From Niabella aurantiaca DSM 17617 (GTDB lineage Bacteria > Bacteroidota > Bacteroidia > Chitinophagales > Chitinophagaceae), in assembly GCF_000374125.1 (NCBI RefSeq), contig NZ_KB893648.1, positions 124,001 to 188,000 of the forward strand: 64,000 nucleotides of DNA, read 5' to 3'. A model generated the notes under the pieces. That model worked only from the letters and a program-made list of their open reading frames with translations. It was not told the origin of the DNA and made no database searches. The translations under genes were made by a program, and so were the position numbers. Shown in pieces: positions 15,662-64,000 of this stretch (positions within the stretch are counted from its first letter, which is position 1; every line of letters begins with the position of its first letter).

Positions 15662-15859
15662 AGTGGTTGTTTTTAGTTGTGTGAAACAAAGGAACTGAGG
15701 TCCTCTTTGCCTAAATGCCGTTTCCACGTTCCCTGCCCGGCGCCCTTCTGCGAAATCATTCCGGCGGAGATGGAATAAATTCCGGTAACGGCACCAGGCT
15801 CCCGGAATAAAACTCCACAGGAAGCGGCCCACGGACCATCCTCCGTTCAAAACGCTTTT

Positions 15860-16903
15860 TTATTTTACCAGGATGTCCCGGAAATAGCTTTCCGTATTTA
15901 AGGAATACAAAAGGCTGCCGTTTTTCCAGCATCTTGCCATTGCTTCCACGCTTGTTCCTGCTTCGCCACCTACGACGTACACGTCATTTCCCTGCACGGC
16001 AATTGCGCCGGCGGAAGTGGTCTTTTGAGCGCCGGAAACCGGATTGTCAATCCCGTTTTTCCAGTATCGGACATTATTGGCCGTACTGGGATTGCGTTCG
16101 GAACCGGCTATGTAAATTGTATTGTTGCGGATCACAATACCGTTTGCATAACCATTGTATTGCTGGTTGGTAAGGGAAACAGGCGTTCCGTTCTTCCAAT
16201 ACCTGGCCACATATACTCCGGAGGTAAGCCCTTGTTCATAACCGGTAACATAAATATCATTACCATCTACAACCAGGTCGGTGGTATAGGCATCCCTGTT
16301 ACCATCAGTAAGTACAATTTCGGCTCCGTTCTTCCAGTATTTGGCGACGCTTTTGCCGGTAATGTTGCTTTTTTCGTTACCCGCTACATAAACGGTTCCG
16401 TTTGCGATTTTGATGGCATTGGCATAAGCATTGTTCTGGCCATTGGTAAGGGCTACCGGCGTTCCGTTCTTCCAGTATTTTGCAATATAAGCGCCGTTAA
16501 CACTGTTTTGCTCATGGCCTGCCACATATACATCCCGGCCGTCGGTCACCACACCATACGCATACGCATTTCTGTTGCCCTCGTTCAATGAAACGGACGT
16601 TCCATTCTTCCAGTATTTGGCCACAGAATGGGTATTGTCGAATTCGTATCCTGCTACGTAAATATCGCCTGCGTCCGATATGCCAATAGCAGTGGCAAAG
16701 GCATTGTAGGAACCGTTCGTCAGGGCTGTTGCTTTGCCGTCTTTCCAGTACTTGGCAATATAGGTATCGGTGGCGCTGTTCAGCTCATTGCCTGCTATAT
16801 AAACGCCGGAGGCGGTATTGTTATCTGCTGTATCAGCATGCTTTTTTTTACATGCGCATACTGCGGAAAGCAGGATGAGTAGCAGTATGTACTTTTTTAT
16901 CAT
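15860..16903 (-). CDS. Lipoprotein with seven WKNG repeats, likely beta-propeller
   Basis: The 347-residue lipoprotein (LLSAVCACKKK) is built almost wholly from seven repeats of ~45 residues. Each repeat has the order [IV]Y[VI]AG.E, then [AV][KR]YWKNG, then a polar LTNG-type turn, then NAYA..I...G. Copy 6 is shortened and copy 7 ends the protein with the first strands only. Seven four-stranded units fit a seven-bladed beta-propeller. No catalytic residues stand out. ATG 16903 is chosen because it begins the signal peptide; the 18 residues before it are not export-like. It lies between the leucine-rich-repeat lipoprotein and the YD-repeat-like paralogues. A binding or scaffold role at the cell surface is inference. 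Confidence 0.8.
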   Translation of the reverse strand: MIKKYILLLILLSAVCACKKKHADTADNNTASGVYIAGNELNSATDTYIAKYWKDGKATALTNGSYNAFATAIGISDAGDIYVAGYEFDNTHSVAKYWKNGTSVSLNEGNRNAYAYGVVTDGRDVYVAGHEQNSVNGAYIAKYWKNGTPVALTNGQNNAYANAIKIANGTVYVAGNEKSNITGKSVAKYWKNGAEIVLTDGNRDAYTTDLVVDGNDIYVTGYEQGLTSGVYVARYWKNGTPVSLTNQQYNGYANGIVIRNNTIYIAGSERNPSTANNVRYWKNGIDNPVSGAQKTTSAGAIAVQGNDVYVVGGEAGTSVEAMARCWKNGSLLYSLNTESYFRDILVK

Positions 16904-16929
16904 AAGAACGTTTTTATCATTACATGCGA

Positions 16930-17664
16930 TCAGCCGCATTGGTATTCGTAATGCCATGTTTTACTGCTGTTGCCGGTTGTTTTTGTCATGGAAATAATTT
17001 TTCCATCTTTATCAAACTGGTAACTGATCGTTATGATGCCGTTCTCAGACCGGATGCTTTTAAGCAGATTTTTATTCCGGTACAGTTTATCTCCCCTGCC
17101 CAAAGTGGGCAATAGATTGATATACCAGTAGTCTCCGGGTTGCACCAGCTTGTCAGTATAGTATTCATAGCGGTAGCCGTTGTCCAGTTCCCTTTTCACG
17201 TCATTCGATGTTTCAGAAATAAAATTGCCGTTGTTCCAGGTAAGTGTAGCCTGTATGGGCGCTGCGCCGGATGAAAGAACGGTCGTGATCCCCGTCAATG
17301 CCGTTCCGCTGAACGTATAGGATCTGAACGCCCAGCTGGTGATCCCTCCGTGCCAGGTTTCCTCAAACAGGTTACTCATCATTCCGTTGCATCCCAATGT
17401 CATTACACGTTTATACAAAAGAGAGTCATTTCTGGTTTCCGTTGCAACGATCGTATTGCTGCAGTAATCGAAGCGGGTAAAATATCCATTCCGCCCGGTG
17501 ATGCGTTGTACCCTGCCTTTGGCATCATATAAAAAGCGAAGGGTGTCTTCCGCATCGCTGGTCATCCCGGTGATCCGGCATCCCGGTAAAGGGGCAGGAG
17601 TCGTTGCAGGACCGGAGAGTCCAGCGATAAAAGCAAGAACGGGCAGAAAGTATGCGGATGTCAT
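16930..17664 (-). CDS. Secreted YD-repeat-like protein (paralogue 2 of 3)
   Basis: The 244-residue exported protein from ATG 17664 has a hydrophobic N-terminus (MTSAYFLPVLAFIAGLSG). The mature part resembles DUF4595/RHS-style beta sheets, with repeating 'FLYDAKGRVQRITG', 'LTWNNGNFISET', 'YEYYTDK' and 'YQFDKDGKIISM'. It shares with two neighbours (17676-18419 and 21149-21868) the order N-terminal Cys (GCRI), PGDYW, NKNLLKSI, GKIISM and a terminal Cys followed by one residue (YEYQCG). The paired end cysteines could lock the first and last strands. No enzymatic motif is visible. An in-frame TTG at 17685 would overlap the upstream gene and is less likely. Function unknown. Confidence 0.75.
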   Translation of the reverse strand: MTSAYFLPVLAFIAGLSGPATTPAPLPGCRITGMTSDAEDTLRFLYDAKGRVQRITGRNGYFTRFDYCSNTIVATETRNDSLLYKRVMTLGCNGMMSNLFEETWHGGITSWAFRSYTFSGTALTGITTVLSSGAAPIQATLTWNNGNFISETSNDVKRELDNGYRYEYYTDKLVQPGDYWYINLLPTLGRGDKLYRNKNLLKSIRSENGIITISYQFDKDGKIISMTKTTGNSSKTWHYEYQCG

Positions 17665-17675
17665 GTTAACGGGAT

Positions 17676-18419
17676 TTAATTGCAATGGTATTCGTAAGTA
17701 TAAGTAGATGGATTGCTGTTGTTTTGATCGGTTACGGTCATGGAAATAATTTTTCCATTGCTGTCAAAAGCGTAATTATAGTTGCTGATCTCCGTTTCCG
17801 GAACGCCGGGAGTGGAACTTCCGGGATTGTTGTCAATATATATGCTGGTTCGTTTCTTTACCAGGTTTTTATTGCGGATCGTTTCTACACCGTTTTCTAA
17901 TAGATCCCACGAGAAATAATCACCCGGGCTGTAAGGTTTGCCGGTATCATATTCATACGATGTGCTTTGGCTGTAGTCGGCCCCCTGTATCTGCTCCGTG
18001 ATCATATTGCCATTGCTCCAGGTGTATGTCCGTATATTATTTCCGGAGTATTTGTTAACGGTTGATCGTTTCAGTTTTGTTCCATCATATTCGTAGGTTC
18101 TTTTTTCCCACTGCGTGCCGCTGTTGTTGTATTCCCTTCTTTCAAAGGCCAGCAGGCCATTGCTGTTGAGGGCATATACGGATTTCCAGGTGCCTTCTTT
18201 TATGATCGAGTCGCCAACGTATCGGAAGCTTGTAGCCCAACTGCCGTAGTCCACAGTCAGTATTCTTCCTTTTGCATCGTAACTGAATACTTCGGTATTG
18301 CTCAATGGCTCAGTGATTTTTATAATGCGGCAGTCGGGCTTATTGCCGGAATCGTCTTTTTTACAACCGGTGAAACTGAAGATGCAGAAGGTTGCCGCAA
18401 GAAAAATACAGAATTTCAT
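17676..18419 (-). CDS. YD-repeat-like lipoprotein (paralogue 1 of 3)
   Basis: The 247-residue protein has a lipoprotein signal (MKFCIFLAATFCIFSFTGCKK). Its beta-rich body carries repeated FSYDAKGRI, YEYDGTKL, YTWSNGNMI, YEYDTGKPYSPGDYF and YAFDSNGKIISM, and ends in YEYHCN. The DCRI cysteine near the mature N-terminus and the penultimate Cys are conserved in both paralogues. The resemblance is to DUF4595 and RHS/YD repeats, here free-standing rather than as a toxin shell. The gene ends 11 nt before paralogue 2, so these two look like a tandem duplication within one transcript. Only this copy is clearly lipidated. No ligand or partner can be named. Confidence 0.77.
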   Translation of the reverse strand: MKFCIFLAATFCIFSFTGCKKDDSGNKPDCRIIKITEPLSNTEVFSYDAKGRILTVDYGSWATSFRYVGDSIIKEGTWKSVYALNSNGLLAFERREYNNSGTQWEKRTYEYDGTKLKRSTVNKYSGNNIRTYTWSNGNMITEQIQGADYSQSTSYEYDTGKPYSPGDYFSWDLLENGVETIRNKNLVKKRTSIYIDNNPGSSTPGVPETEISNYNYAFDSNGKIISMTVTDQNNSNPSTYTYEYHCN

Positions 18420-27905: not shown

Positions 27906-28124
27906 CGGCTTTATACCGCAGTTGAACGGTGTGAAAACGATTGCACGAAAGGACCGGATATTTTCAGAAAATCTTGTATTATATTTGGAGAGAACAGATT
28001 GTAGAGCGGCTCCCTTCTGCCCTGAAACAACATGTGGATGTTTGGGCAACGGGAATGATGCTGTATGAAGATAAAGGTTTCCGGAGAAGGTCTTCCTGTT
28101 CGTTTATTTAAACCAGTGTGCTTT

Positions 28125-51453: not shown

Positions 51454-52117
51454 GAAAACTCCTCCTGATTATCTGACAAATGTAACATAATTGAGGAAGG
51501 TTTTGTTGTCATGGAACGGGATGTGGAAAACTGTGGATGGAACATTTATCCGGTGGTCCTGAAAAGCCGGCCGCTTCATTTTTTCGGGACGAATGGGAGG
51601 CGCGAGCCGGTCCGCTGCTTCCTGAATGGTGTTTGACAGGAGGGTAGTACCGAAGGGACCGGGCAGCCCTGTCATTAACCTGTTACTCCCGCTTCAGATA
51701 GCAAGCGGATATTCAAGACAAATATTGATAAATAGCTTTTTTACCGGGTATAAAACTCTACTAAAATAGTCAGGGCCGGTTGCTTCATCCGCCCGCCCGC
51801 CTCAGAAAAACCGGCGTCAATAAACAATCCTTACACGTTCTTTAGTCGTGTAAAGTCCCTGATGCCAAAATTGCTTAGTAGATGGTTAATTTAATGCGTT
51901 GTGCAGTTGTCTTTGCGGCTTATCATTGCGCTATCTAACGTACGGATTCGATTGCTGCAGCTAAGCGATTGTTTGATGAGCATAAAATTACGGGCTTGCT
52001 ATTTCTGCTAATGGTCAATGATCGTTTCGACAAAGATTGGAATCATTTTACTGGATCAAATTTATAAGCTGCCTGAAGCAGCCGAAACAACCTTTTATTA
52101 ATAAAAAGCAATACTCA
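51454..52117. other. Divergent dnaX/susC intergenic region
   Basis: The 664 bp contain the dnaX promoter (TACATTTG, - strand, 51477-51484) and, toward the susC side, the conserved 33-nt element at 51858-51890. Short open frames in both directions (for example 51469-51675) lack coding character. A long untranslated leader for the + strand PUL is likely. Confidence 0.55.
51858..51890 (+). promoter_or_regulatory. 33-nt conserved PUL upstream element, copy 1
   Basis: It contains CCTGATGCCAAAAT, then TGCTTAGTAG and ATGGTTAAT. The copy at 63627-63659 is identical at 30 of 33 positions. Both precede SusC genes on the same strand and are absent before the ECF-linked SusC. Here it ends 228 nt before ATG 52118. 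It may be a regulator binding site or an alternative core promoter. Confidence 0.7.
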
Positions 52118-55100
52118 ATGGTGAAAATGACTTTTGCACACCCGGGATTTCTAAAAAAACTCAGATTGCTTATAGCAACAATGGGATTTCTATTTTTATC
52201 CCTTGCCGGCTTCTCGCAGGCTAAAATAACCGTCGTTGGTATGGTAGTGGATACGTCGGCTATACCACTGCAGAATATCAGCGTAACCGTTCAAAACGAA
52301 AAGACGGGTACGGCCACGGATGTAAATGGTAAGTTCGTTTTAGATGTGGCTCCGGGTAGCACGTTGATCTTTAGTGCGGTGACCTACAACAACGCTGCCT
52401 ATAAAGTACCAGCGGTGGCGGAAAAGGATCTCAGGATCACTTTAACGCCTAAGGAAGTGTCTGCTAATGAAGAAGTAATTGTGACCGCCTATGGCAAAAA
52501 AGTACGCCGGGAGTCTGTAACCGGTTCGGTAGCCACCATCAAGCCTGATCAGCTGAGAAGCCCGGCCTCCAACCTTACGGCCGCGCTGGCCGGCCAGGTA
52601 GCGGGTATTATCGGTTTTCAAAGCAGCGGCCAGCCAGGCTTTGATAATGCAGATTTCTTTGTTCGGGGCGTTACCACATTCGGATACCGGCAAAGCCCGC
52701 TGATCTTAATTGACAATATCGAATTGACCACGGATGATCTCGCCCGTTTGCAGGTAGATGATATTTCGGAGTTTTCGATCCTGAAGGATGCCAGTGCCAC
52801 GGCTTTGTACGGTTCTCGCGGGGCGAACGGTGTGATACTGGTAACAACCAAAAGAGGGCGGGTAGGCAAACCCAACTATAATGTCCGCTACGATAATTCC
52901 GTGTCTACACCTACCCAGACGCTGAAATTTGCGGACCCCATCACCTATATGCATCTGTACAATGAAGCACAGCTGACCCGGAATCCTTACCAGATCCCGA
53001 TGTTTGATGCAGACAAAATTTATTTTACCCAGAGAACGCTTGATGGCGCCCCGGATGGCAATCCCTATGTGTATCCGGCGGTGGATTGGGTAGACCTGAT
53101 GTTTAAAAAGTACTCGCACACCCAAAAACTAAATGCAAGCGTTTCCGGCGGTAGTGAATCTACACAGTATATGGTGTCCGGCTCATACAGCGATGACCGG
53201 GGGCTTCTGAGGCAAGGTGATCAGAGCATATTCGACGGGGGCATTAATTTCCGAAATTACCAGTTAAGGTCAAATGTGGATGTAAAGCTTACGCGGACCA
53301 CAAAGCTGAGCGTGGACCTGTGGGGTATTTTTAACGATTACAACGGGCCTATCACCAATGATGCAAGCGGTTTTGCTACGGACCTGTACTACTGGGCCAC
53401 CCATAGCAGCCCTGTACTGTTTCCCGCCTATTTTGAACCCGACGAGGCCAATGCATATACGCAGCACATATTGTTTGGAAATTTTAACGGGAACTCGCCG
53501 GACCGTAGTGGCGGCAATTTCCTGCCCTCGCTAGGTGTAGGGTATTCCAATCCTTATGCCCAAATGATGCGCGGCTACCGGACGCGGAATAATTCCCGCA
53601 TCAGCGCTACCGCCCGTTTGAACCAGGATCTGGATATGATCACCAAGGGCCTGAGCTTTAGCGGTTTCTTTACGACCAACCGTTTTGCCCAGGTACAGTA
53701 TACCATGACCTATAACCCTTTTTATTACACCGTAGATGCCTATGACAGGGCTACTGACCGTTACACCTTGTTTTGGCTGAATAGTAAATCCGGATTGCCT
53801 TTCAACGGGAATGGAGCTTCAGGCAACAATGCCGTGGCTACGGAATATTTGGCCATCTCCGCAGGCGACCGCGCGTCCAGCTCCTTTATCCAGATGCAGG
53901 GGATCTTAAATTATGACCGGAGCTTTGGAGATCATAGCCTGAATGGATCACTGGTAGTGAACCGGCAGCAGACGCTGGATCCGTCCGCAGTTAACGACTA
54001 TACGAAAGTATTGCCAACCCGCAATCTTACCTATGCCGGAAGCGCCCGCTACGGTTACCAGAACCGGTATAACCTTCAATTCGATTTCGGCTATAACGGG
54101 TCCGAACGCTTTGATCCTTTGCATCGTTTTGGTTTCTTTCCCAGCATATCCGGAGCCTGGAATCTAAGTAATGAAAATTTCTGGAAGAACGGCAAGCTGG
54201 GGGGGATTGTTACCCGGTTTAAACTACGGGCCAGCTACGGAAGATCGGGCAACGATGACATCGGCACGCAGCGTTTCTTTTATGTTTCGAACGTAAACCT
54301 AGATAACTCCGGCGCCGGTGCGGCTTTTGGAACCAACAACGAGTATAACAGACCCGGCGTTACCATATCAAGCTACCCGAACCCCGAGATCTCCTGGGAG
54401 ATCAGCCGGATCAGCAACTATGCAATTGAATTTACCTTATTCAATTCGCTGGATTTTATCGGGGAATACTGGACCCGGAAGACCACCGATATTTTGCAAA
54501 AAAGGCTCATACCCAATAGCATGGGACTGGAAGCCAACCTGAGCGGCAACCTGGGAAGGGCCACTTCCGAGGGGCTGGACCTTACATTAAACTATAAAAA
54601 AGCGTTTTCCAACGGGCTGAGCCTGGTGGTGATGTCGAACAGTACTTTCTCCAGGGCGCGGTATGACTACTATGAAGAGTCCGATTACGGTACAGAATAT
54701 TGGCGGCGGCAAACGGGCACCTATGTAGGCCAGCGGATGGGCTTTATAGCAGAGCGCCTGTTTGTTGATGATCAGGAGGCAGCAGCATCTCCCACACAGA
54801 TATTCGGTACTTCAGGAAAGGGCGCACAGGGCGGAGATATCAAGTACCGGGATATCAATGGTGATGGTGTGATCAACAATGCCGATAAGGTGCCCATTGG
54901 ACTACCAAACAGTCCGCAAATCACCTATGGTTTCGGCGCCAGCCTCAATTACAGCAGTTTTGACCTGAATTTCCGGTTTACCGGGCAGGCAAGAGCCACG
55001 CTTTATATGTACCCAAATACGATCAGTCCGTTTATTGGAGTTTCCGGTGGTTCTCCAACGCAGATATTACAGCAATTTGCAGATGACCATTGGTCAGAAA

Positions 55101-55435
55101 GCAACCAAAACCTGTATGCGCTTTATCCCAGGCTGGGTACAACAGAAGATGATATTGCTAACAATAAAGAGGTTAGCACCTGGTGGCTGAGGGACGGCAG
55201 CCTCCTGCGGTTAAAGTCTGCAGAGCTGGGGTACACCCTCCCGCAAAAATTGCTGAACCGGGTGTCTGTAAAAAATGCCCGGATCTATCTCAGTGGCATT
55301 AACCTGCTGCGCTTCAGCGACTTCGATCTGTGGGAGCCGGAACTGTCTTTTAATACCAATAACAATAATCCCAACAGCGCCTTTAACTATCCCTTATTGA
55401 AGCAATACAATTTAGGCATCAACATACAATTATAA
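52118..55435 (+). CDS. SusC/RagA-type TonB-dependent transporter
   Basis: This ~1,105-residue outer-membrane transporter without an STN domain has a signal peptide (LRLLIATMGFLFLSLAGFSQA), then CarboxypepD_reg-like (VVGMVVDTSAIPLQNISVTV). The plug follows, with the typical SNLTAALAGQVAGIIGFQSSGQPGFDN, LILIDNIELTTDDL and LKDASATALYGSRGANGVILVTTKRG, and a barrel ending in YNLGINIQL. ATG 52118 is preferred; the earlier frame from 52037 is not signal-like. Lack of STN and of a nearby ECF/FecR pair implies another control mode, perhaps through the 33-nt element. It pairs with the SusD 16 nt downstream. Confidence 0.95.
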   Translation: MVKMTFAHPGFLKKLRLLIATMGFLFLSLAGFSQAKITVVGMVVDTSAIPLQNISVTVQNEKTGTATDVNGKFVLDVAPGSTLIFSAVTYNNAAYKVPAVAEKDLRITLTPKEVSANEEVIVTAYGKKVRRESVTGSVATIKPDQLRSPASNLTAALAGQVAGIIGFQSSGQPGFDNADFFVRGVTTFGYRQSPLILIDNIELTTDDLARLQVDDISEFSILKDASATALYGSRGANGVILVTTKRGRVGKPNYNVRYDNSVSTPTQTLKFADPITYMHLYNEAQLTRNPYQIPMFDADKIYFTQRTLDGAPDGNPYVYPAVDWVDLMFKKYSHTQKLNASVSGGSESTQYMVSGSYSDDRGLLRQGDQSIFDGGINFRNYQLRSNVDVKLTRTTKLSVDLWGIFNDYNGPITNDASGFATDLYYWATHSSPVLFPAYFEPDEANAYTQHILFGNFNGNSPDRSGGNFLPSLGVGYSNPYAQMMRGYRTRNNSRISATARLNQDLDMITKGLSFSGFFTTNRFAQVQYTMTYNPFYYTVDAYDRATDRYTLFWLNSKSGLPFNGNGASGNNAVATEYLAISAGDRASSSFIQMQGILNYDRSFGDHSLNGSLVVNRQQTLDPSAVNDYTKVLPTRNLTYAGSARYGYQNRYNLQFDFGYNGSERFDPLHRFGFFPSISGAWNLSNENFWKNGKLGGIVTRFKLRASYGRSGNDDIGTQRFFYVSNVNLDNSGAGAAFGTNNEYNRPGVTISSYPNPEISWEISRISNYAIEFTLFNSLDFIGEYWTRKTTDILQKRLIPNSMGLEANLSGNLGRATSEGLDLTLNYKKAFSNGLSLVVMSNSTFSRARYDYYEESDYGTEYWRRQTGTYVGQRMGFIAERLFVDDQEAAASPTQIFGTSGKGAQGGDIKYRDINGDGVINNADKVPIGLPNSPQITYGFGASLNYSSFDLNFRFTGQARATLYMYPNTISPFIGVSGGSPTQILQQFADDHWSESNQNLYALYPRLGTTEDDIANNKEVSTWWLRDGSLLRLKSAELGYTLPQKLLNRVSVKNARIYLSGINLLRFSDFDLWEPELSFNTNNNNPNSAFNYPLLKQYNLGINIQL

Positions 55436-55451
55436 AACCAGGAGGAGTATC

Positions 55452-57377
55452 ATGAAAAAAAATAATATAATTATCGCCCTGATGGCTGTTGCGTTTGCAT
55501 TTAGCACGGCCGGTTGTAAAAAGTACCTGGATATTGTACCGCAGAATGTGGGCACACTGGAGTATGCGTTCCGGAACCGGAACGAGGCTGAAAAATATCT
55601 TTTTACCTGTTATAATACATTGCAGCAACGGTCGAATATGGTAAACGACCCCTGGTTTGCGACGGGCGGCGAGCTGATATTACCGCAGGAATTTCTGGGG
55701 CAAACAAATCTTACTGCTCCGGGTCTCCAGCTAGTGAAAGGAGGGGTACAGAACAAAGACAATCCGGTGCTGGATTACTGGGACGGCAGCGGTTCCGCAC
55801 CCAGCTATTTTGATGCGATCCGCCGCTGCAACACTTTCCTTGAAAATGTAGACAGGCCGATCGATCTGGATAACTTTGAAAAGGAAAGATGGACTGCCGA
55901 GGTAAAATTCCTGAAAGCCTATTATCATTTCTTCCTGGCCAAAATGTACGGACCCATTCCGCTCATGCGTGAGAATATACCGGTTACTGCAAATACGGAG
56001 GAAACCCGGCGACCCCGGGATCCGGTGGATTCTGTGTTCAATTATGTAGTACAGCTCCTGGATGAGGCGGCGCCGGGCCTGCCCGTACAGATTGACAACC
56101 CGGAGCAGGAGCTGGGCCGTATTACACGGGTCATTGCCCTGTCGTTAAAGGCCGAGGTGCTGGTAGCACAGGCCAGCCCGCTATTCAACGGGAACCCCGA
56201 TTATGCAGGAGTTAAAAACAAAGATGGTGCATCTCTTTTTTCAGCGGTAGCCGATCATACCTTGTGGGAAAAAGCAGCACAGGCCTGTAAGGACGCTATA
56301 GATCTTGCGGAGTCTGCCGGTCTGGGTTTGTACACCTATATAATCCCACCCAATGTTCCGGCCAGTCTTTCAGAACCTCTGGTAAAGGAAATGAATTTCC
56401 GGGCTGCAATTACAGAAGCCTGGGATAAAAATAAAGAACTGGTCTGGGCGCTGAATGGCTCCTTCGGGTGGCAACAGCAAATGTTTCCCAAATTAGTATC
56501 CGGCGCGGTGGTTACCCGCGGTCAGAACACGATTGCCTGTCCTTTCGGAGTTACGGATCTTTTTTACTCTAAGAACGGAGTTCCGATCGAAGAGGACAAG
56601 ACCTGGGATTATACGAACCGATTTACGGCCGCAACCGGGGATGCGGACCATGAGTTCTATATCAAAAAAGGATATGAAACGATTAAGAATAATTTTGACC
56701 GGGAGGTGCGCTATTATGCCAGCTTTGGTTTTGATGGCGGCATTTGGTTTGGTAACGCGGTGTATAGCCCTGCCAGCAGTTTGCTGAGCATCCAGGGAAA
56801 AGGCGCCAGCAGCATTTCGGGCGTTTCCAACGCAGAATCGGGAAACGTTTTTGGAATATGGCCCAAAAAACTATGTAATTATTTAACGGTAAATGATACA
56901 AAATCGTATTCGGCCTCCGGATACCGGCTGCCGTTGATCCGTATGGCAGATCTGTATTTATTATATGCAGAGTGCCTGAATGAGGCCGGCGGGCCTACAG
57001 ATGACGTGTACCATTATTTAGATATCGTACGTGCCCGTACCGGCTTGAAAGGCGTGGTGGAATCCTGGGCAGATTATTCCAATAACCCCGGCAAGCCCTT
57101 AACCAAAGACGGATTGCGGCAGATCATTCACCGGGAACGCCGTATTGAGCTCTGCATGGAAGGTAAAGCGGGCTGGGATCTGAGGCGCTGGAAAGAATAT
57201 CTTGAAGTAGCTACCCGGCCCATACAGGGGTGGACGGTAAGCCAGACAACGACCGGGGCCTATTATCAGCTGACTACCTTTTATGTACCGTCACTTTCGG
57301 TAAAAGATTACTTGTGGCCTATTTCCTCGAATGAGCTGTTGGTAAATCAGAACTTAGTGCAAAATCCATATTGGTAG
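55452..57377 (+). CDS. SusD/RagB-family nutrient-binding lipoprotein
   Basis: The 641-residue lipoprotein (AFSTAGCKKYLDIVPQN, Cys22) has the SusD helical scaffold: YEKY-like AEKYLFTCYNTLQQR, WTAEVKFLKAYYHFFLAKMYGPIPL, IALSLKAEVLVAQASPLFNG, and the C-terminal RMADLYLLYAECLNEAGG and IHRERRIELCMEGKAGWDLRRWK, ending NPYW. A strong Shine-Dalgarno (AGGAGG) precedes the ATG. It covers the SusC barrel encoded just upstream and captures oligosaccharide at the surface. The glycan is unknown, but the GH28-like gene nearby hints at a pectic polymer. Confidence 0.96.
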   Translation: MKKNNIIIALMAVAFAFSTAGCKKYLDIVPQNVGTLEYAFRNRNEAEKYLFTCYNTLQQRSNMVNDPWFATGGELILPQEFLGQTNLTAPGLQLVKGGVQNKDNPVLDYWDGSGSAPSYFDAIRRCNTFLENVDRPIDLDNFEKERWTAEVKFLKAYYHFFLAKMYGPIPLMRENIPVTANTEETRRPRDPVDSVFNYVVQLLDEAAPGLPVQIDNPEQELGRITRVIALSLKAEVLVAQASPLFNGNPDYAGVKNKDGASLFSAVADHTLWEKAAQACKDAIDLAESAGLGLYTYIIPPNVPASLSEPLVKEMNFRAAITEAWDKNKELVWALNGSFGWQQQMFPKLVSGAVVTRGQNTIACPFGVTDLFYSKNGVPIEEDKTWDYTNRFTAATGDADHEFYIKKGYETIKNNFDREVRYYASFGFDGGIWFGNAVYSPASSLLSIQGKGASSISGVSNAESGNVFGIWPKKLCNYLTVNDTKSYSASGYRLPLIRMADLYLLYAECLNEAGGPTDDVYHYLDIVRARTGLKGVVESWADYSNNPGKPLTKDGLRQIIHRERRIELCMEGKAGWDLRRWKEYLEVATRPIQGWTVSQTTTGAYYQLTTFYVPSLSVKDYLWPISSNELLVNQNLVQNPYW

Positions 57378-57409
57378 GTATAGCCATACTTGATAGTTAA
57401 TTTGAGCTG

Positions 57410-58675
57410 ATGACTAAAAAAATAAAAATGATACAGATGAAACGAAAGATATATCCATCGGGCGCTTTGACTGCTGTTGCTGCGGTCTTACTGTCTGTAA
57501 TAGCTGTTTCGTGCAGCCATAAGAACGAGTTTGTGGAAATGATCTCCACCGATAAAACAAAGCCGGCCCCGATACAGGAATATACTGTTGCTGATTTTAA
57601 CGGCGGCTCACATATTGTTTACGATCTGCCCAAAGTTGATAACATCCTTTATGTGAAAGCAAACTATGATCTGAACGGAAATGCTACAAGGCCGCAGGAA
57701 ACGCGGTCGAGCTATTTCTCCGACACCATCACAGTAGAAGGGTTTGCCTCTGCGAAAGAGTATGAGGTGAAGCTTACGGTGGTGAGCAGGGCAAATATTG
57801 AATCAGATCCTGTCGTTGTTAAAGTGCATCCTAAAACGCCGGTGTACCAGCTGGTGGCACAATCCCTTACAATGACGCCCGATTTCCAGGGGGTGCGGGT
57901 TCAGGCGCAAAATGCAGATAGTAAAACGGTAGGCATCGTTTTTTTGGATGATGCGATCGGAAAGCTGAGCATCCGCCAGCAGAATTTTACATCATTTCCG
58001 AATATCTCTTATGCGGTGCGGGGCTATGATACCATTCCGAAGCAGTATGCATCGTATGTTACCGATAAGTGGGGCAACAGGTCCGACACGATTTTTACTA
58101 CCGTAAAGCCGCTGTACGAAAAAACATTGGATAAGACGAAGTTTTCAAGCTACGCGTTGCCGAGTGAAACCCCAATTTATAGCAGTTCCTATCCGCTTAA
58201 TAAACTGTTTGACGGAAATTATTCCAATTTCTGGCATACGACACAGGCCACCAGCCAGCAGCTGCCCGTGTATGGAACCTTTAAGCTTGGAACCTATGTG
58301 AAGCTGAGCAGGTTTAAGCTTAAACCCCGGAATCCCAATTACGAATTCCGGCATGGCTGCCCGCGGGTCTTCAGCCTTTGGGGGTCGGATGTTGATAACC
58401 CGGCAGACTTTGAAGTACCGCTCTTTGCAGAGGTGGGAACGAAGATCGGTGACTGGGAAAATCTTGGCAATTATACCTGGCCCAATCCTCCTTCGGGATC
58501 GGCGCCTACTGCGCCCACGGCGGAAGATAAAGTATTTTTTAATGCCGGTGTAGAGTTTGAAATTCCCTTTGAGGCGCCTAAGGTTAAAGTACTGCGATTG
58601 GTGGTAAGCGAAACATGGGTGCCCGGAAATTTCACGCACGCAGCAGAGATTGATCTCTTTGGGGACGACCGGTAG
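57410..58675 (+). CDS. PUL surface lipoprotein, DUF4959/DUF5000 type
   Basis: This ~421-residue lipoprotein (LLSVIAVSCSHK) occupies the SusE position after SusD. The N-terminal part has a fibronectin-like DUF4959 feel (YTVADFNGGSHIVYDLP..NILYVKANYDLNG). A middle domain follows (AQNADSKTVGIVFLDDAIG), then a C-terminal discoidin-like DUF5000 domain (LFDGNYSNFWHTTQA, FKLGTYVKLSRFKLKPR, FSLWGSD, VKVLRLVVSETW). F5/8-type discoidin domains bind sugars, so a surface glycan-binding role is likely. Starts at 57410, 57428 and 57437 are all in frame; the last gives the tidiest signal peptide. Confidence 0.82.
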   Translation: MTKKIKMIQMKRKIYPSGALTAVAAVLLSVIAVSCSHKNEFVEMISTDKTKPAPIQEYTVADFNGGSHIVYDLPKVDNILYVKANYDLNGNATRPQETRSSYFSDTITVEGFASAKEYEVKLTVVSRANIESDPVVVKVHPKTPVYQLVAQSLTMTPDFQGVRVQAQNADSKTVGIVFLDDAIGKLSIRQQNFTSFPNISYAVRGYDTIPKQYASYVTDKWGNRSDTIFTTVKPLYEKTLDKTKFSSYALPSETPIYSSSYPLNKLFDGNYSNFWHTTQATSQQLPVYGTFKLGTYVKLSRFKLKPRNPNYEFRHGCPRVFSLWGSDVDNPADFEVPLFAEVGTKIGDWENLGNYTWPNPPSGSAPTAPTAEDKVFFNAGVEFEIPFEAPKVKVLRLVVSETWVPGNFTHAAEIDLFGDDR

Positions 58676-58769
58676 ATGGTCCTGTTATTAAAAGAGATTC
58701 CCGCTATTTTAATTTTCATAAGTGCCTGGAAGGTCAATGGACCCGGGAGCAAAAAATAAACTATTTAAA

Positions 58770-59447
58770 ATGAAATTCTTTATCAGTATTTTTATTCTCA
58801 GCCTCGTCCTCTTTGCCGGTTGCGAAAAAGATCAGTATGCGTATAAGAAATTTATCGGCGGCAGTGAGATCGCTTATGCCGGACTGGCGGAAGAGATCGC
58901 TACGAGAAGCGGTAACCTTCGTGTTCAGGTGGAATGGAAAAAAAGCATTGATCCTGCCGTGGTTTCCTATACACTTTACTGGAACAATAATCTGGATTCC
59001 GCCATCACACCAGCCACAGCCATTGACCCGGATGGAATATACCGGTACATTATTTCCGGGCTTCCTGAATATGTTCAGAGTTTCAGGATCGTGGCTGCAA
59101 ACGACCGTGGAGGCAGGTCCATTGGACAATCCATTAACAGCGTTAGGGTGTTTGGTCCCTATTACCGCTCTTCGCTGATCAATCAAAGGCTCCGCAGCCG
59201 GAAATTTTTTGGTACGGATTCGGTGCGGTTGTATTTTTTGCAAACAGATACAACGAAGCTCTTTTCTACCATCCGGTACACCCGCCTGGATGGCAACCCT
59301 GACAGCATCCGCTTTCAGCATGACTCTGTAACCGTATCTTCTTATCTGCCCGGCTCGAAGCCTGCCGTTCAATCCTATTATTTACCAACGGCAACGGCTA
59401 TTGATACGTTCAAAACAATAGCAGCGGACAGCCTGGAGGCTTTTTAA
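58770..59447 (+). CDS. DUF4998-type PUL lipoprotein
   Basis: The 225-residue lipoprotein (ILSLVLFAGCEKD, Cys18) resembles DUF4998. After YKKFIGGSEIAYAGLAEEI come two fibronectin-like units (NLRVQVEWKKSIDPAVVSYTLYWNNNLDS and GLPEYVQSFRIVAANDRGG). In Bacteroidota PULs this family follows the DUF5000 lipoprotein, as here (94 nt away), and probably helps bind or orient glycan on the cell surface. ATG 58770 is used; the 16-residue upstream extension is not signal-like. It is the last gene of this PUL transcript. Confidence 0.82.
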   Translation: MKFFISIFILSLVLFAGCEKDQYAYKKFIGGSEIAYAGLAEEIATRSGNLRVQVEWKKSIDPAVVSYTLYWNNNLDSAITPATAIDPDGIYRYIISGLPEYVQSFRIVAANDRGGRSIGQSINSVRVFGPYYRSSLINQRLRSRKFFGTDSVRLYFLQTDTTKLFSTIRYTRLDGNPDSIRFQHDSVTVSSYLPGSKPAVQSYYLPTATAIDTFKTIAADSLEAF

Positions 59448-59844
59448 AAATAAGTAATACCGATTTGGGGCTGACCAAAAAGGTTTAGACCTATTTGTTT
59501 TGGGTCAGCCCCATCCCGATAGGAGCTACCGGGAGCATTATACGGGGAAGTATCGGCCTAAATTATAATTCACTTTTGTATAAGCAGCATCCATACAGGA
59601 AAACGACCTACACGGTCAGGGAGAGAAAACGATTCACGTTGAGCTGTAGTACGTACAGGGTTGCCTGTTTTCATTTCCGGCAAACGATATGTGAAGACTC
59701 AGGGAGCGTTTCCGGTCGGGGAGCGCAAACTCCCATTCTCACGAATCCTTTCAGGCTTGTAGGCCAGCTGTTTCGGCAGAATTGATATTGCGCTGCTTCC
59801 TTCTTCGGGGTTTAAAATCCGGTATCTGCGGATCCCTTCCTGCA
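59448..59844. other. Convergent intergenic region with a long hairpin
   Basis: Apart from the hairpin at 59466-59513, this 397-bp gap between the PUL end and the convergent GH28-like gene shows no coding sequence with family-like features. Short frames are Arg/Ser/Cys-rich. Confidence 0.5.
59466..59513. repeat. Long inverted repeat, terminator-like or mobile-element relic
   Basis: TGGGGCTGACC (59466-59476) pairs with GGTCAGCCCCA (59503-59513). AAAA after the left arm and TTTT before the right arm extend the stem past one bulged G, leaving an ~18-nt loop. There is no T-run after the stem, so it is not a standard terminator. The arms look like transposon-type ends but no transposase is between them. 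Confidence 0.6.
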
Positions 59845-62691
59845 TTATTGTATGGTCAGCCCGGTTACATTCCGGTAACCCAATTGCTCCTTAAGAGCGG
59901 AGGGCGTCTGGATATGGATCAGCCGGGCATTTTGAACATCGTCCAGGTACAGCGCATAGCGGCCATCGGCCTTTTCAGTGGCGAATCCCGAATTTTTCAC
60001 CGTCAGGTTTTTGGCATGCCTTACCCAGAGCCCCCAGGAAGGCTGCAATTTCAGGTTGGAGGCATTGTATTGACCCACACCCAGTTCCGGCGGAACGGCA
60101 GCGGTGTCTGAAGCAGGATGCCCCCCTTTTACAAGCACATGAATGTCGTTAAAAACAATATGATTAATATAGCCGGTATGCAGGTCATTGGGCAAGCGGA
60201 AGGACAGGCCGCCCTCCACCTGCTTTGTATCGGGCAATTGGTAGCCGGCTACAATGGGGGTAGCGGTTCGTTGGGTACCGTTATAGGGGATCCAGCGGGT
60301 GCTGTTCCTGCCAAATGAGCTGCCTCCGTAGACCTCAGCAATATCCACACCGTTCAGGATGATGTTTTCGACCCGGCCAATATTGACGTTGGTCACCAGC
60401 AGCTCGTCGTGCTGCACATCATGTTCCCGGAACCGGAAACGCTTTGCCTCCGCACCCAGCACACGGCCCCTGTTGGAAATGGAGATAAAGAAAGGCGTGT
60501 AAGTGCGGTACATTCTGGAACGGTGGTGCAGCGGCCCGGTATGCCCGCAGTTGAGGTGGATGTTCTGAACATGGCCCCCGTCATTGGTGGAAATGGAGAA
60601 CCCGGCCTTGTTGGCGCCCAGTACGTAAATATTGTCCACACAGATATCGGTGATGTCGTCCGCCGTTTCGGAGCCGATCTGGAAAAGGTTGCAATTGGTG
60701 TCGCCTATGATATTGCGCACCCGATAGTTCTTTGCCGGTCTTGTAAATCCCAGTGAACAGTCAGACCCCGGTTTTACAATATCATCCGAACTGACTTTTG
60801 AATAGATATTGGTTACGGTAACATTGTTACATCCCATAAAATCATAAATATCGCGGGCATTGGCCGTATTGTTTTTGGCAAAATACGTATCGTGCACCCG
60901 GATCTGGTCCGTACCGGTTGCCAGCAATACAAAATGACCCGCGCGGTCAATATGAAGCATATTCCCGGTATCGAAATCTTTTCCTTTGCCCGGCAGGATA
61001 TAATAGGGGGCATCCTTTGCGGAGTCGTACCAGAGATCCTCACTGCGATGAATACCACCGATCTCCACGTTGGTGCAGAGCTTTAATGAGAACATCTTGT
61101 CGCTGCGGTTGTCTGGGGTATTGTTCATGACCTTGTCGCTGGTTACCAGGTTGCCATTACCGGTAATATACCCGTTGCCGATGATTTTGATGTTATCCGC
61201 CCGCTCACCAAAGAACATCGCATTTTTAAAAAAAGTATGTCCTACATCCTGCTTGGTAAGCCAGTTCTCAGGGTTTTCATAAGGACCCATATCGGTGGGC
61301 GACAAACCCGAACGGTATTTTTTATCGCTGAACCAGGTAGTTTCGGGGGCATCGCCACCTTTCAGCGCTTTTATCGTGGCGTCTTTGTCGAGGTAGAGCC
61401 ATACGTTGCTCAATAAATGCACGGTTCTTACCTGGTAAACCCCTTTGCTGAAGCGCAGGGTACCGCCCCCCGAAAGATGAAGTTGCCGGATGGCTTCATT
61501 GATCCGTCCGGTATCATCTTCTTCGCCATTACCGCTGACCCCGAAATCTTTGATATCCGTTTTTCCCGAATAAAAGGCCACACTGTTGGAAACGCCGCTG
61601 GCGCCGCCGCCGGTTGCCTGTATCCGGAATGCGTAATGGTTACCAGGCCGGATACCGGATATGGAAGCGGTCCCTCCGGCTACATCGACGGTTGCTTTTA
61701 CAGGGTGCCAGGTCTTCCCCGAATCGGATGATTGTTGCACCCTTACTCCGGACGCGGCCACAGGAGCCCACTTCAGCAAGACCCGGGTGTACAGACCGTT
61801 CTTTTCGGTATAAATACCGGCGGTATCGGGAACCCGGTGCAGGTCGGAAATGGTGCGGGTAGCATATACGATAACGCTGGCCCCGGTGCTGGACAAAATC
61901 TCCGGGGCCCGGGTGGTATAGCTGGCCCTGAAGCGATAGGCGCCGGGGGCCGCACATGAAATGCGGTGCAGGACCAGCACAAGGTCCGGGCCGTTGGCCG
62001 GGCGCAGGTCTAAATGCTCAAAGGTGATCCTGCGGCCATTGGCGGAGATGCGGACACGGCCGGTTCTGGAATATGGGTAGCCGGCTCCTGTTCTGCCAAT
62101 GGATTGTTGCTCAAGATCCTTCAGCAACACCAGGCCCCGTCCGATGATGTTCACAGAAGTGTTTTCCAGGGTGGCCCGGATGCCCTCGGGTAGATCGAAG
62201 TTTACGGTGGCATCCGGACTGCGTTGCCCGGCAGTATAATGCAATACCAGGTCGTTAAGCGTATGGACGGTGACGCTTTTTTGCAAGGCAACCAGTTGGC
62301 CTCCCGTTGCTTTCGGGATCAGCCGGATAAAAAAAGATCTTGATTGTCCACCAGGGCCCTGTTCTGTAAGTCGGTCCCCGGTAATGAGTGTTCCTGTTGT
62401 TTTTGGGATGCCGTTTTCAGACTGTATGGAATACCGGAAATTTTCCTGCTGCAGGTCTGCATATAACAGGGCTACCGAAGGCGTTGTAGCCACCAGGCCG
62501 CTGTCTTCCGGTGTATCCACACTAAAGGAATAGGTGCTGCCGGATGTCAGGTACAGGGTGTCCTTTTTTACCCCGGCCACATACCGGGTATTTTCGAACG
62601 GGCGCTGCTGCGCGTTGAGCCCGCTGCCCGCGCCGAACAGGAGCAATAAGAGGATGGGGATTGGTGAAGACCTCATAAAAAATAATTTCAT
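59845..62691 (-). CDS. Secreted GH28-like beta-helix glycosidase with fibronectin domain
   Basis: The 948-residue protein has a signal peptide (IPILLLLLFGAGSGLNAQ), ~250 residues of beta-sandwich, and a fibronectin type III domain (~300-375; LLKWAPVAASGVRVQQSSDSG...GNHYAFRIQATG). Next comes a parallel beta-helix of the GH28/pectate-lyase-like group starting KDFGVSGNGEEDDTGRINEAI and GGTLRFSKGVYQVRTVHL. The active-site region NIYSKVSSDDIVKPGSD matches the GH28 'DD' pattern, and HVQNIHLNCGHTGPLHHR follows. Galacturonan hydrolysis is the family's main activity, but substrate is uncertain. It starts 12 nt after the AraC gene, so the two share a transcript. It should work with one of the flanking SusC/D PULs. 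Confidence 0.8.
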   Translation of the reverse strand: MKLFFMRSSPIPILLLLLFGAGSGLNAQQRPFENTRYVAGVKKDTLYLTSGSTYSFSVDTPEDSGLVATTPSVALLYADLQQENFRYSIQSENGIPKTTGTLITGDRLTEQGPGGQSRSFFIRLIPKATGGQLVALQKSVTVHTLNDLVLHYTAGQRSPDATVNFDLPEGIRATLENTSVNIIGRGLVLLKDLEQQSIGRTGAGYPYSRTGRVRISANGRRITFEHLDLRPANGPDLVLVLHRISCAAPGAYRFRASYTTRAPEILSSTGASVIVYATRTISDLHRVPDTAGIYTEKNGLYTRVLLKWAPVAASGVRVQQSSDSGKTWHPVKATVDVAGGTASISGIRPGNHYAFRIQATGGGASGVSNSVAFYSGKTDIKDFGVSGNGEEDDTGRINEAIRQLHLSGGGTLRFSKGVYQVRTVHLLSNVWLYLDKDATIKALKGGDAPETTWFSDKKYRSGLSPTDMGPYENPENWLTKQDVGHTFFKNAMFFGERADNIKIIGNGYITGNGNLVTSDKVMNNTPDNRSDKMFSLKLCTNVEIGGIHRSEDLWYDSAKDAPYYILPGKGKDFDTGNMLHIDRAGHFVLLATGTDQIRVHDTYFAKNNTANARDIYDFMGCNNVTVTNIYSKVSSDDIVKPGSDCSLGFTRPAKNYRVRNIIGDTNCNLFQIGSETADDITDICVDNIYVLGANKAGFSISTNDGGHVQNIHLNCGHTGPLHHRSRMYRTYTPFFISISNRGRVLGAEAKRFRFREHDVQHDELLVTNVNIGRVENIILNGVDIAEVYGGSSFGRNSTRWIPYNGTQRTATPIVAGYQLPDTKQVEGGLSFRLPNDLHTGYINHIVFNDIHVLVKGGHPASDTAAVPPELGVGQYNASNLKLQPSWGLWVRHAKNLTVKNSGFATEKADGRYALYLDDVQNARLIHIQTPSALKEQLGYRNVTGLTIQ

Positions 62692-62703
62692 TTATTGGAA
62701 TAT

Positions 62704-63564
62704 TTATCCGGTTTTGTACTCTTTTTGATAAACGAGGGGGCTCATGCCTGTTATCTGTTTGAAGCATTTATGAAAGGAGGTGAAATTGTTAAAGCCGCTT
62801 TCGTAGCATAACCGCTTTATCGGCGTATCTGTTTCGACCAGCTGTTTGCAAACGTGCCCGATCCTTAATTCCGTAATGAACTGGGAGTATGTTTTTCTGG
62901 TCCTTAATTTAAAATACCTGCAAAAAGAGCTGGGGCTGATGCTGGCGACAGCGGCAATTTCACGGAGCTGTATTTTGCGCCTGAAATTCCTGATGGTGTA
63001 TTCGTAAACATCATTGATCCGTTCTTCTTCTGCTTTCCCCGCGTCCATTTGGATACGGACGGAAGACAGGTAGGTGATCTCCGCCCAGCCGGCAATTTTT
63101 GACAGCAGGGCAAGCAGGGAAATAATGCGGTATGGGCCATTGATGTTGAGCAGGTAATCGAATGAATGGATGAGGGCCCTGGTTTTTCCCTGGATCAGCA
63201 TTCCTCTTTTGACCCGCTCCAGCAGCAGCCGGATATTCTTGTTTTCCGGGAGGTCCAAAAACTTTTGTCCCCAGAAGGCTTCCTGGAAATGAATGGCAAT
63301 GACATCAATGGGCGCATCGGTGCGCTCATAATAGCGGTCGTCAAACCTCCAGTAGTGGGGGAGGCCGGATCCGATGAGGCACATGGTGCCGGGTGCAAAA
63401 TTGCGAACATGGTCCCCCACGAGCAGCGTGCCTGCGCCCTCGGCAATGTAGATCAGCTCCACTTCCTTATGACAGTGCCATCGGTTATTAACAGGTGTCC
63501 GGTCCCTCCTTACATCGAAGGAAACTCCGGGCATTGTTGCCATTTTTAATACATATGGTTTCAT
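62704..63564 (-). CDS. AraC-family transcriptional regulator with cupin sensor domain
   Basis: The 286-residue regulator has an N-terminal cupin-type ligand domain (NNRWHCHKEVELIYIAEGAGTLLVGD, FAPGTMCLIGSGLPHYWR) and a C-terminal AraC double HTH (IQLREIAAVASISPSSFCRYFKLRTRKTYSQFI, CYESGFNNFTSFHKCFKQITGMSPLVYQK). Such proteins usually sense a sugar and activate divergent or adjacent catabolic genes. It is divergent from the SusC gene at 63738 and upstream of the GH28-like gene in one operon. Candidate sites in the shared 173-bp intergenic region are the 33-nt element and a 16-bp palindrome. Confidence 0.92.
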   Translation of the reverse strand: MKPYVLKMATMPGVSFDVRRDRTPVNNRWHCHKEVELIYIAEGAGTLLVGDHVRNFAPGTMCLIGSGLPHYWRFDDRYYERTDAPIDVIAIHFQEAFWGQKFLDLPENKNIRLLLERVKRGMLIQGKTRALIHSFDYLLNINGPYRIISLLALLSKIAGWAEITYLSSVRIQMDAGKAEEERINDVYEYTIRNFRRKIQLREIAAVASISPSSFCRYFKLRTRKTYSQFITELRIGHVCKQLVETDTPIKRLCYESGFNNFTSFHKCFKQITGMSPLVYQKEYKTG

Positions 63565-63626
63565 TCAAAAGCTCGTTATAGGCAAATAGTAAACGAAATA
63601 TACACCAGAATCCGGTTGACAAATAG

Positions 63627-63659
63627 CCTGAAGCCAAAATAGCTTAGTAGTTGGTTAAT
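63627..63659 (+). promoter_or_regulatory. 33-nt conserved PUL upstream element, copy 2
   Basis: It is the same element as at 51858-51890 with three substitutions. Core blocks are GCCAAAAT, GCTTAGTAG and TGGTTAAT. The last block runs into TAATATTG (63656-63663), seven of eight matches in pattern to TAnnTTTG. It ends 78 nt before ATG 63738 and lies between the AraC gene and SusC. Confidence 0.7.
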
Positions 63660-63692
63660 ATTGAAAAATCAGATGCTCCAAAAACGTCTTTA

Positions 63693-63708
63693 TTTGCACA
63701 TGTGCAAA
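63693..63708. promoter_or_regulatory. Perfect 16-bp palindrome TTTGCACATGTGCAAA
   Basis: A fully self-complementary site lies 30 nt before the SusC start and downstream of the 33-nt element. Size and symmetry fit a dimeric LacI- or CRP-like repressor/activator rather than an RNA hairpin, as there is no loop. No equivalent precedes the SusC at 52118. Confidence 0.55.
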
Positions 63709-63737
63709 CGATTGAACAATTTTTAAAAAATTAAACT

Positions 63738-64000
63738 ATGACGTATTGCTTTGTGAAAAAAAGGAGGAGCGCCTTGAAACTGCTTGTCCTGTTTTCTGTT
63801 CTGTTTTCCTTTCCTGTTTTTTTGCGGGCGCAAAAAAATATCCAGGTACAGGGAACTGTTCAGGACGAAAAGGGAGATCCCGTTTCGCAGGCCTCGGTCC
63901 TGTTAAAAGATTCTGATCGCGGAACCAGTTCAGACTCTTCAGGACATTTCTCTATTATGGTTCCTGATGGAAAGGGCACGCTGGTTTTCTCGGCCGTTGG
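63738..64000 (+). CDS. SusC/RagA-type TonB-dependent transporter, N-terminal part (partial)
   Basis: The gene runs off the window end; 87 full codons are visible. They encode a basic N-terminus and signal peptide (KKRRSALKLLVLFSVLFSF..LRAQ), then the start of a CarboxypepD_reg-like domain (IQVQGTVQDEKGDPVSQASVLL, GTSSDSSGHFSI), the normal beginning of SusC proteins lacking an STN domain. It is divergent from the AraC gene and is likely the first gene of a third PUL. Confidence 0.85.
   Translation, partial: MTYCFVKKRRSALKLLVLFSVLFSFPVFLRAQKNIQVQGTVQDEKGDPVSQASVLLKDSDRGTSSDSSGHFSIMVPDGKGTLVFSAV

Follow-up and report, generated by a model that had tools for sequence, protein, structure and literature searches.

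In this study, we examined a 64,000-nt stretch of the genome of Niabella aurantiaca DSM 17617 (positions 124,001 to 188,000 of contig NZ_KB893648.1; hereafter the window), in which a 33-nt element stands before two genes for SusC-type receptors, here called susC1 and susC2. From comparison of sequences, we consider it very probable that this element serves as operator for an AraC-family regulator whose gene lies on the reverse strand at 62704-63564. The element itself, its link to one clade of AraC proteins, its orientation relative to their genes, its spacing from -7 boxes and a repeat at offset 21 within it were established by computation. Work on the control of polysaccharide utilization loci (PULs) has mostly dealt with hybrid two-component systems (HTCS), SusR and extracytoplasmic function (ECF) systems of gut Bacteroides. 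For soil Bacteroidota, the present analysis now offers a specific pair of regulator and operator along with its consensus, its promoter geometry and a testable inducer, and would permit regulon prediction for fucose-type glycans across several families.

Results

The two copies of the element, at 51858-51890 (before the susC1-susD1-DUF5000-DUF4998 genes) and at 63627-63659 (between the divergent araC and susC2 genes), lie on the forward strand and are identical at 30 of 33 positions; our recount agrees with the initial annotation in coordinates, shared orientation and number of identities. Their 27-nt core, GCCAAAATNGCTTAGTAGNTGGTTAAT, occurs exactly twice in the window (51864-51890 and 63633-63659, both forward), and 100 dinucleotide shuffles gave no match to it with up to three mismatches allowed. 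In a scan of same-strand 33-mer pairs that kept the best pair per offset, the two copies ranked joint first, and the remaining five direct pairs with at least 28 identities all have their starts within 14275-17736. The flanks of the copies show no likeness, either by eye or in an alignment of the next 41 nt, as had been claimed of their surroundings. A further susC gene, at 31637, encodes an STN domain and is preceded by genes for a sigma-70-type factor and FecR. The 500 nt before it hold nothing element-like, with a top matrix score of -2.0 as against 41.5 and 39.2 for the two copies, and neither susC1 nor susC2 gave an STN match; the earlier statements that nothing similar precedes the ECF/FecR-controlled gene and that the element-bearing susC genes are STN-less are both correct. 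We also considered an RNA element, which is unlikely: neither an Rfam match at gathering scores nor a tRNA was found in the window, and the inferred transcription starts are downstream of the element.

Within the genus, the element is tied to the AraC gene. Allowing up to three mismatches, we found 12 sites in six of 59 genomes (that of N. aurantiaca included), all six in Niabella, and no site with a reversed control pattern in the same 59 genomes. The 12 sites fall into eight loci, every one of them with an orthologue of the window AraC: eight sites lie in the araC-divergent region and four about 9-12 kb away, before susC1. Both copies are kept at orthologous places in three genomes (G005, G006 and G010). 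N. drilacis and N. pedocola have orthologous loci. At two loci (G005:C44 and G010:C4), araC and the element stay together and the genes beyond differ, with a 465-aa gene that is followed, in G010, by a gene of the glycoside hydrolase family 28 (GH28) type. The susC1 genes (window 51454-62691) stand between dnaX and araC in N. aurantiaca (G000), G005, G006 and G010, are absent there in G014 and G015, and look gained or lost beside araC. In Niabella G015, an unlinked SusC/SusD pair likewise has the element in front of it.

A matrix built from 10 Niabella sites recovered a site at all 11 Niabella AraC orthologues found (59-100% identity), including three outside the training set; the lowest of these scored 18.0, compared with a maximum of 13.7 in 220 simple shuffles. 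Two susC1 orthologues distant from araC (G012 and G003), both with broken-up reading frames, have no site above 8.0 in the stretches covered (L109 and L110); from these two cases, the element seems to go with araC and not with the susC1 genes. As a separate observation, genome G003 (72% complete; L110, L113, L229) has a susD homologue in two pieces and an AraC homologue with an internal stop, and its broken PUL frames may be assembly error. An exact-pattern scan of named genomes, which possibly left out the N. aurantiaca genome, gave no match; the sister species deviate from the exact pattern.

Five Niabella genomes have AraC paralogues of 42-45% identity, of which four are neighbours of a FucP homologue. 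At these paralogues, a faint likeness, in most with GnTAAAATAGTGTAGG, lies 42-47 nt from the gene on the same strand; its scores of -5.7 to 3.5 are within the shuffle range and the likeness is only suggestive. Near Niabella AraC paralogues of 52-54% identity, similar sites were seen before a GSDH-domain gene (L202:8207, score 23.9; L201:5863, score 12.8), and cross-talk among AraC paralogues is possible.

Beyond Niabella, the association is seen in part of the regions. We fetched 80 named AraC homologues, six of them from Niabella, and scanned 81 non-Niabella regions, 72 from the named homologues (two duplicates dropped) and nine from further genomes. With the Niabella-only matrix, 28 of the 81 regions have a site at a score of at least 10, a set that includes several near-identical Pedobacter loci, and all 28 sites have the same orientation relative to araC; at a score of at least 6 there are 38, of which 37 are in that orientation. 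As background, a score of 10 was reached by 54 of 1482 windows taken from other parts of these loci and by 57 of 1620 Markov shuffles; some of the matches in those other parts look real, as they precede SusC, GH29 or dehydratase genes. At the level of genomes, 13 of the 19 that have an AraC homologue (E<=1e-70) gave a model match at E<=0.01, compared with 0 of the 40 that lack one. Of these comparisons, the shared orientation and the three orthologues kept out of the training set give the cleaner tests. The initial annotation had named the protein encoded at 62704-63564 as a candidate binder and the element as a possible common operator; co-occurrence with the AraC clade, in Niabella and outside it, speaks for both.

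The regulator is a 286-aa protein with an AraC-type helix-turn-helix domain at its C-terminus (HTH_18, PF12833, E=1.8e-20, residues 203-281) and a ligand-binding cupin domain at its N-terminus (AraC_binding, PF02311, E=1.3e-07; PF07883, E=1e-06). Across 12 element-linked homologues from outside Niabella, identity amounts to 70% in the DNA-binding domain and to 47% in the sensor; for eight Mucilaginibacter proteins the figures are 63% and 49%.

The element also tends to lie at one distance from -7-like boxes. The Bacteroidota -7 consensus is TAnnTTTG. For spacing, alignment and self-similarity, we used sites hand-picked from matrix matches, some from near-identical species, and their conservation is in part a product of this selection. 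Of 32 sites aligned on the element, 23 have a -7-like box with at least five of six letters that starts between +30 and +32. When the range +1 to +80 was divided into 5-nt bins, seven sites fell into +26-30, 16 into +31-35, and at most four into any other bin. On the araC side, for which 13 of 28 regions were tested (11 from Niabella, L038 and L174), the box starts at exactly +31 in 12 of the 13 at four or more of six letters, and in 11 at five of six. A single element in Niabella lies 29-30 nt from both divergent -7 boxes. In the window, the candidate -7 box of the susC1 operon is TATCATTG (51921-51928, forward), which starts 31 nt past the element, and TAACATTG stands at the same distance of 31 nt in three orthologous copy-1 sites; that of the susC2 operon is TTTATTTG (63689-63696, forward), at +30, and that of araC is TATATTTC (63595-63602, reverse), about 30 nt from the opposite side of the element, the distance seen in 12 of 13 regions. 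An unequal spacing of the two copies (TTTG at +22 and +34) was considered and dropped, since alignment of the orthologues places TATCATTG/TAACATTG at +31 and TTTATTTG at +30.

The consensus of the element is approximately GYYAAAATWGYTKARTAnTTGGnYAAT, with 10 invariant columns in 27 chosen sites (G--AA-A--G-T-A-------G--AA). When the motif was compared with itself in these 27 sites at offsets 5-21, without a shuffled control, the first 6-mer, GYYAAA, was best matched again at offset 21 (GnYAAT; 3.74 of 6), with offset 9 next (3.44).

In the N. aurantiaca genome itself, the element is rare. The whole 5.93 Mb contain only the two window copies at up to three mismatches. A sequence-only model (20 sites) scored these at 30.0 and 28.2 bits and found a third, weaker site of 23.9 bits 46 kb downstream (G000:C24:233731-233757; L223:7732-7758), the following match having 12.7 bits. 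At E<=0.05, the genome has at least three model sites, one of them not before susC; such site counts are lower bounds, as the genome-wide model searches scored the best 129 or 150 of thousands of candidates per genome, and they overlooked the L202 site that scores 23.9 on the matrix. About 60 nt separate the third site from the 502-aa gene that it precedes, which has GH29, SASA-esterase and GH88 genes as neighbours; the 502-aa protein has no Pfam match and only a sub-threshold match to a hyaluronate-lyase model. Model matches occur at like positions in five other Niabella genomes, before genes of 499-503 aa. A global motif of susC PULs would be found in many copies, enriched before susC across the genome, and this pattern is not seen here: the element is a local regulatory element and not a general PUL motif. 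The proposal that it serves a group of PULs was therefore too wide, given two copies at up to three mismatches and a weaker site before a gene other than susC, and the genome scan that had been suggested for enrichment upstream of susC yields at least three sites with one outside that setting.

Discussion

How might such an element work? We propose that the AraC protein would bind a direct repeat with a period of 21 bp, the edge of which is some 30 nt distant from the -7 box, and that a sugar held in the cupin domain would allow it to help RNA polymerase start at weak promoters. It would in this way switch on both neighbouring SusCD operons, those of susC1 and susC2, and through copy 2 it would also act on its own divergent gene. 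We infer the binding by AraC, the preference for activation over repression and the identity of the ligand from the computed features; activation is favoured because the element lies upstream of the -7 box.

The opposite sign of control, in which AraC at the element mainly represses susC and itself, would suit an element flanked by divergent promoters, and autorepression is within the range of AraC-type proteins. The element is nevertheless upstream of the -7 boxes and does not overlap them, as is more usual of activator sites, and we regard repression as the unlikely mode. We also think it improbable that another regulator, an HTCS or an AraC paralogue, binds the element and that the adjacent araC is merely linked to it. 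The N. aurantiaca genome does have seven matches to the window AraC at E<=1e-40, a paralogue region has the weaker similar site mentioned above (L201:5863, 12.8), and HTCS likewise combine an AraC-type domain with direct repeats that are about 21 bp in period (PMC3878776), but across genera the element stays with this AraC clade while its other neighbours change.

It is very improbable that the element is a promoter itself, that is, an alternative sigma-factor site or extended -7 sequence for a group of SusC operons, which the initial annotation had raised on account of a -7-like 3' end in copy 2. That end, TAATATTG, does match TAnnTTTG in five of six letters; such a match is present, however, in only 2 of 11 orthologous Niabella sites, compared with 7 of 11 for the box at +30, and this detail did not hold. 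Instead, there is a conserved -7-like box about 30 nt past the element and, in Niabella, a second one about 30 nt away on the araC side; the element there has a divergent gene on either side at the same distance. At E<=0.05, only three sites were found in the genome among the candidates scored. That the near-identical copies, 11.8 kb apart, are a functionless leftover from a recent duplication or belong to a mobile repeat can be set aside, as their flanks are unrelated and both have orthologous counterparts in G005, G006 and G010.

Several findings weigh against the element being the operator of this AraC clade. Within 500 nt, 53 of the 81 non-Niabella regions lack a site at score 10, and 6 of the 19 AraC-positive genomes lack a model match at E<=0.01; at E<=0.05, 14 of the 19 have one, but so do 4 of the 40 AraC-negative genomes. 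The sign test on orientation and the Fisher test on genomes give p-values (7e-9 each) that are too small, as cut-offs were set post hoc, genomes and homologues are related, and the model was in part trained on the genomes that it was tested on. The third site in the N. aurantiaca genome is reversed relative to its own gene. Remote homologues without a site show the same direction of domain conservation (DNA-binding domain 44%, sensor 32%), which means that this conservation lends the shared site weak support. Several other genera have 120-430 nt between the site and araC, for which the two-sided geometry cannot hold; there, the site serves only the other gene or acts differently on araC.

For the inducer, we turned to the genes beside the sites. 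In other genera, the site precedes FucP in L131 and L128, both above the NCBIfam cutoff, and galactarate/altronate-type dehydratases in five loci (L138, L156, L167, L176, L186), as well as a SusC-type receptor (L147) and a cut-off gene start with a SusC-type N-terminal domain (L160). GH29 fucosidases stand 27 nt past the site in L192 and about 425-434 nt past it in L134, L137, L139 and L158; of the loci in which GH29 follows a site, four belong to Mucilaginibacter and one to Pedobacter. Other neighbours include genes for GSDH-like proteins, GH36 and sulfatases. Downstream of susC2, there follow susD, one further gene, and genes for GH2, GH95, GH31, an alginate-lyase-family protein, GH29 and a GH88-like protein. 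FucP together with a mutarotase, such a dehydratase, a short-chain dehydrogenase/reductase and an FAH-type hydrolase resembles the non-phosphorylative L-fucose route. Because of these fucP, dehydratase, fucosidase and susC/D neighbours, we propose an L-fucose-type inducer; L-fucose itself is our best guess, held with evenly divided confidence, and L-rhamnose or another 6-deoxy sugar would be the alternative. Speaking against L-fucose, the hydrolase beside fucP matches an L-rhamnonate-pathway model best (370.7, below the cutoff of 500), the mutarotase is of the RhaM type, and no site was found near the FucP homologue (35%) of the N. aurantiaca genome. The model search of that genome found no catabolic operon with a site. 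On a wider scale, it is plausible, with about equal room for doubt, that L-fucose use in Chitinophagaceae, Sphingobacteriaceae and relatives is governed by a clade of one-component AraC-type regulators with a single conserved operator. This clade would couple SusCD/fucosidase PULs with fucP and dehydratase operons and would be unrelated to the GntR-type FucR of Bacteroides.

In part, the regulator resembles known systems described in PMC3870299 and PMC3878776. Direct repeats of 21-bp period are reported there for AraC-family sugar regulators and, on average, for HTCS. The AraC/XylS sugar regulators with local regulons, such as RhaR of Bacteroides (PMC3870299, PMC3878776), share with the window AraC the combination of cupin and HTH_18, a gene beside its targets, a tandem site of 21-bp period and few targets per genome; here, by comparison, the proposed targets are SusCD operons and genes of fucose type, and a single site in Niabella would serve two divergent promoters that are equally far from it. 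HTCS operators of Bacteroides PULs (PMC3878776) have in common the AraC-type DNA-binding domain of their regulators and the direct repeat of about 21 bp, whereas the regulator here is a one-component protein of 286 aa and no hybrid two-component system. With FucR of Bacteroides, a GntR-family protein (PMC3878776), only the proposed control of L-fucose use is shared; the regulator family is unrelated, and the L-fucose link is here a predicted one. SusR operators (PMC3878776) are also direct repeats in PUL control regions, but theirs are 67 or 77 bp apart, as against 21 bp within a 27-nt core. In the literature on AraC, PULs, Niabella and fucose, leaving aside logos in figures and additional files, we found no description of the motif, and the papers containing motif strings were, among the matches listed, all unrelated by title. 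The kind of switch is ordinary, a local AraC regulon; its target sequence was not found described.

The genes under the two copies and between them are as follows. Copy 1 is followed, on the forward strand, by susC1 (52037-55435; TIGR04056), susD1 (55452-57377), a gene for a DUF4959/DUF5126/DUF5000 protein (57410-58675) and one for a DUF4998 protein (58722-59447). On the reverse strand, a gene for a 948-aa protein (59845-62691), with weak partial matches to pectate-lyase-like beta-helix proteins, adjoins araC in five of the eight loci. Beyond copy 2, susC2 starts at 63738 on the forward strand and continues past the window edge at 64000.

Two further observations concern susC2. A second conserved motif, TGTGCAAACGATTGAACA, lies downstream of its -7 box at 63701-63718 on the forward strand and again at 27930-27947, and its core AACGATTG is present in all 11 araC-adjacent Niabella sites examined. 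The N. aurantiaca genome has 20 matches to it at up to three mismatches (palindromic places counted twice), compared with two for a reversed control, and one match precedes a sigma-factor gene at 28065. We take the motif to resemble a LacI-type operator, and it may add a second layer of susC2 control. Secondly, susC2 (63738 onward; L020, L013, L014, L015, L017, L019) exists in two versions under one control region, one shared by G000, G010 and G014 and the other by G005, G006 and G015. Between G000 and G006, the first approximately 150 aligned residues are 74-80% identical and later 50-column blocks 18-68%, a pattern that suggests cassette exchange of the receptor barrel.

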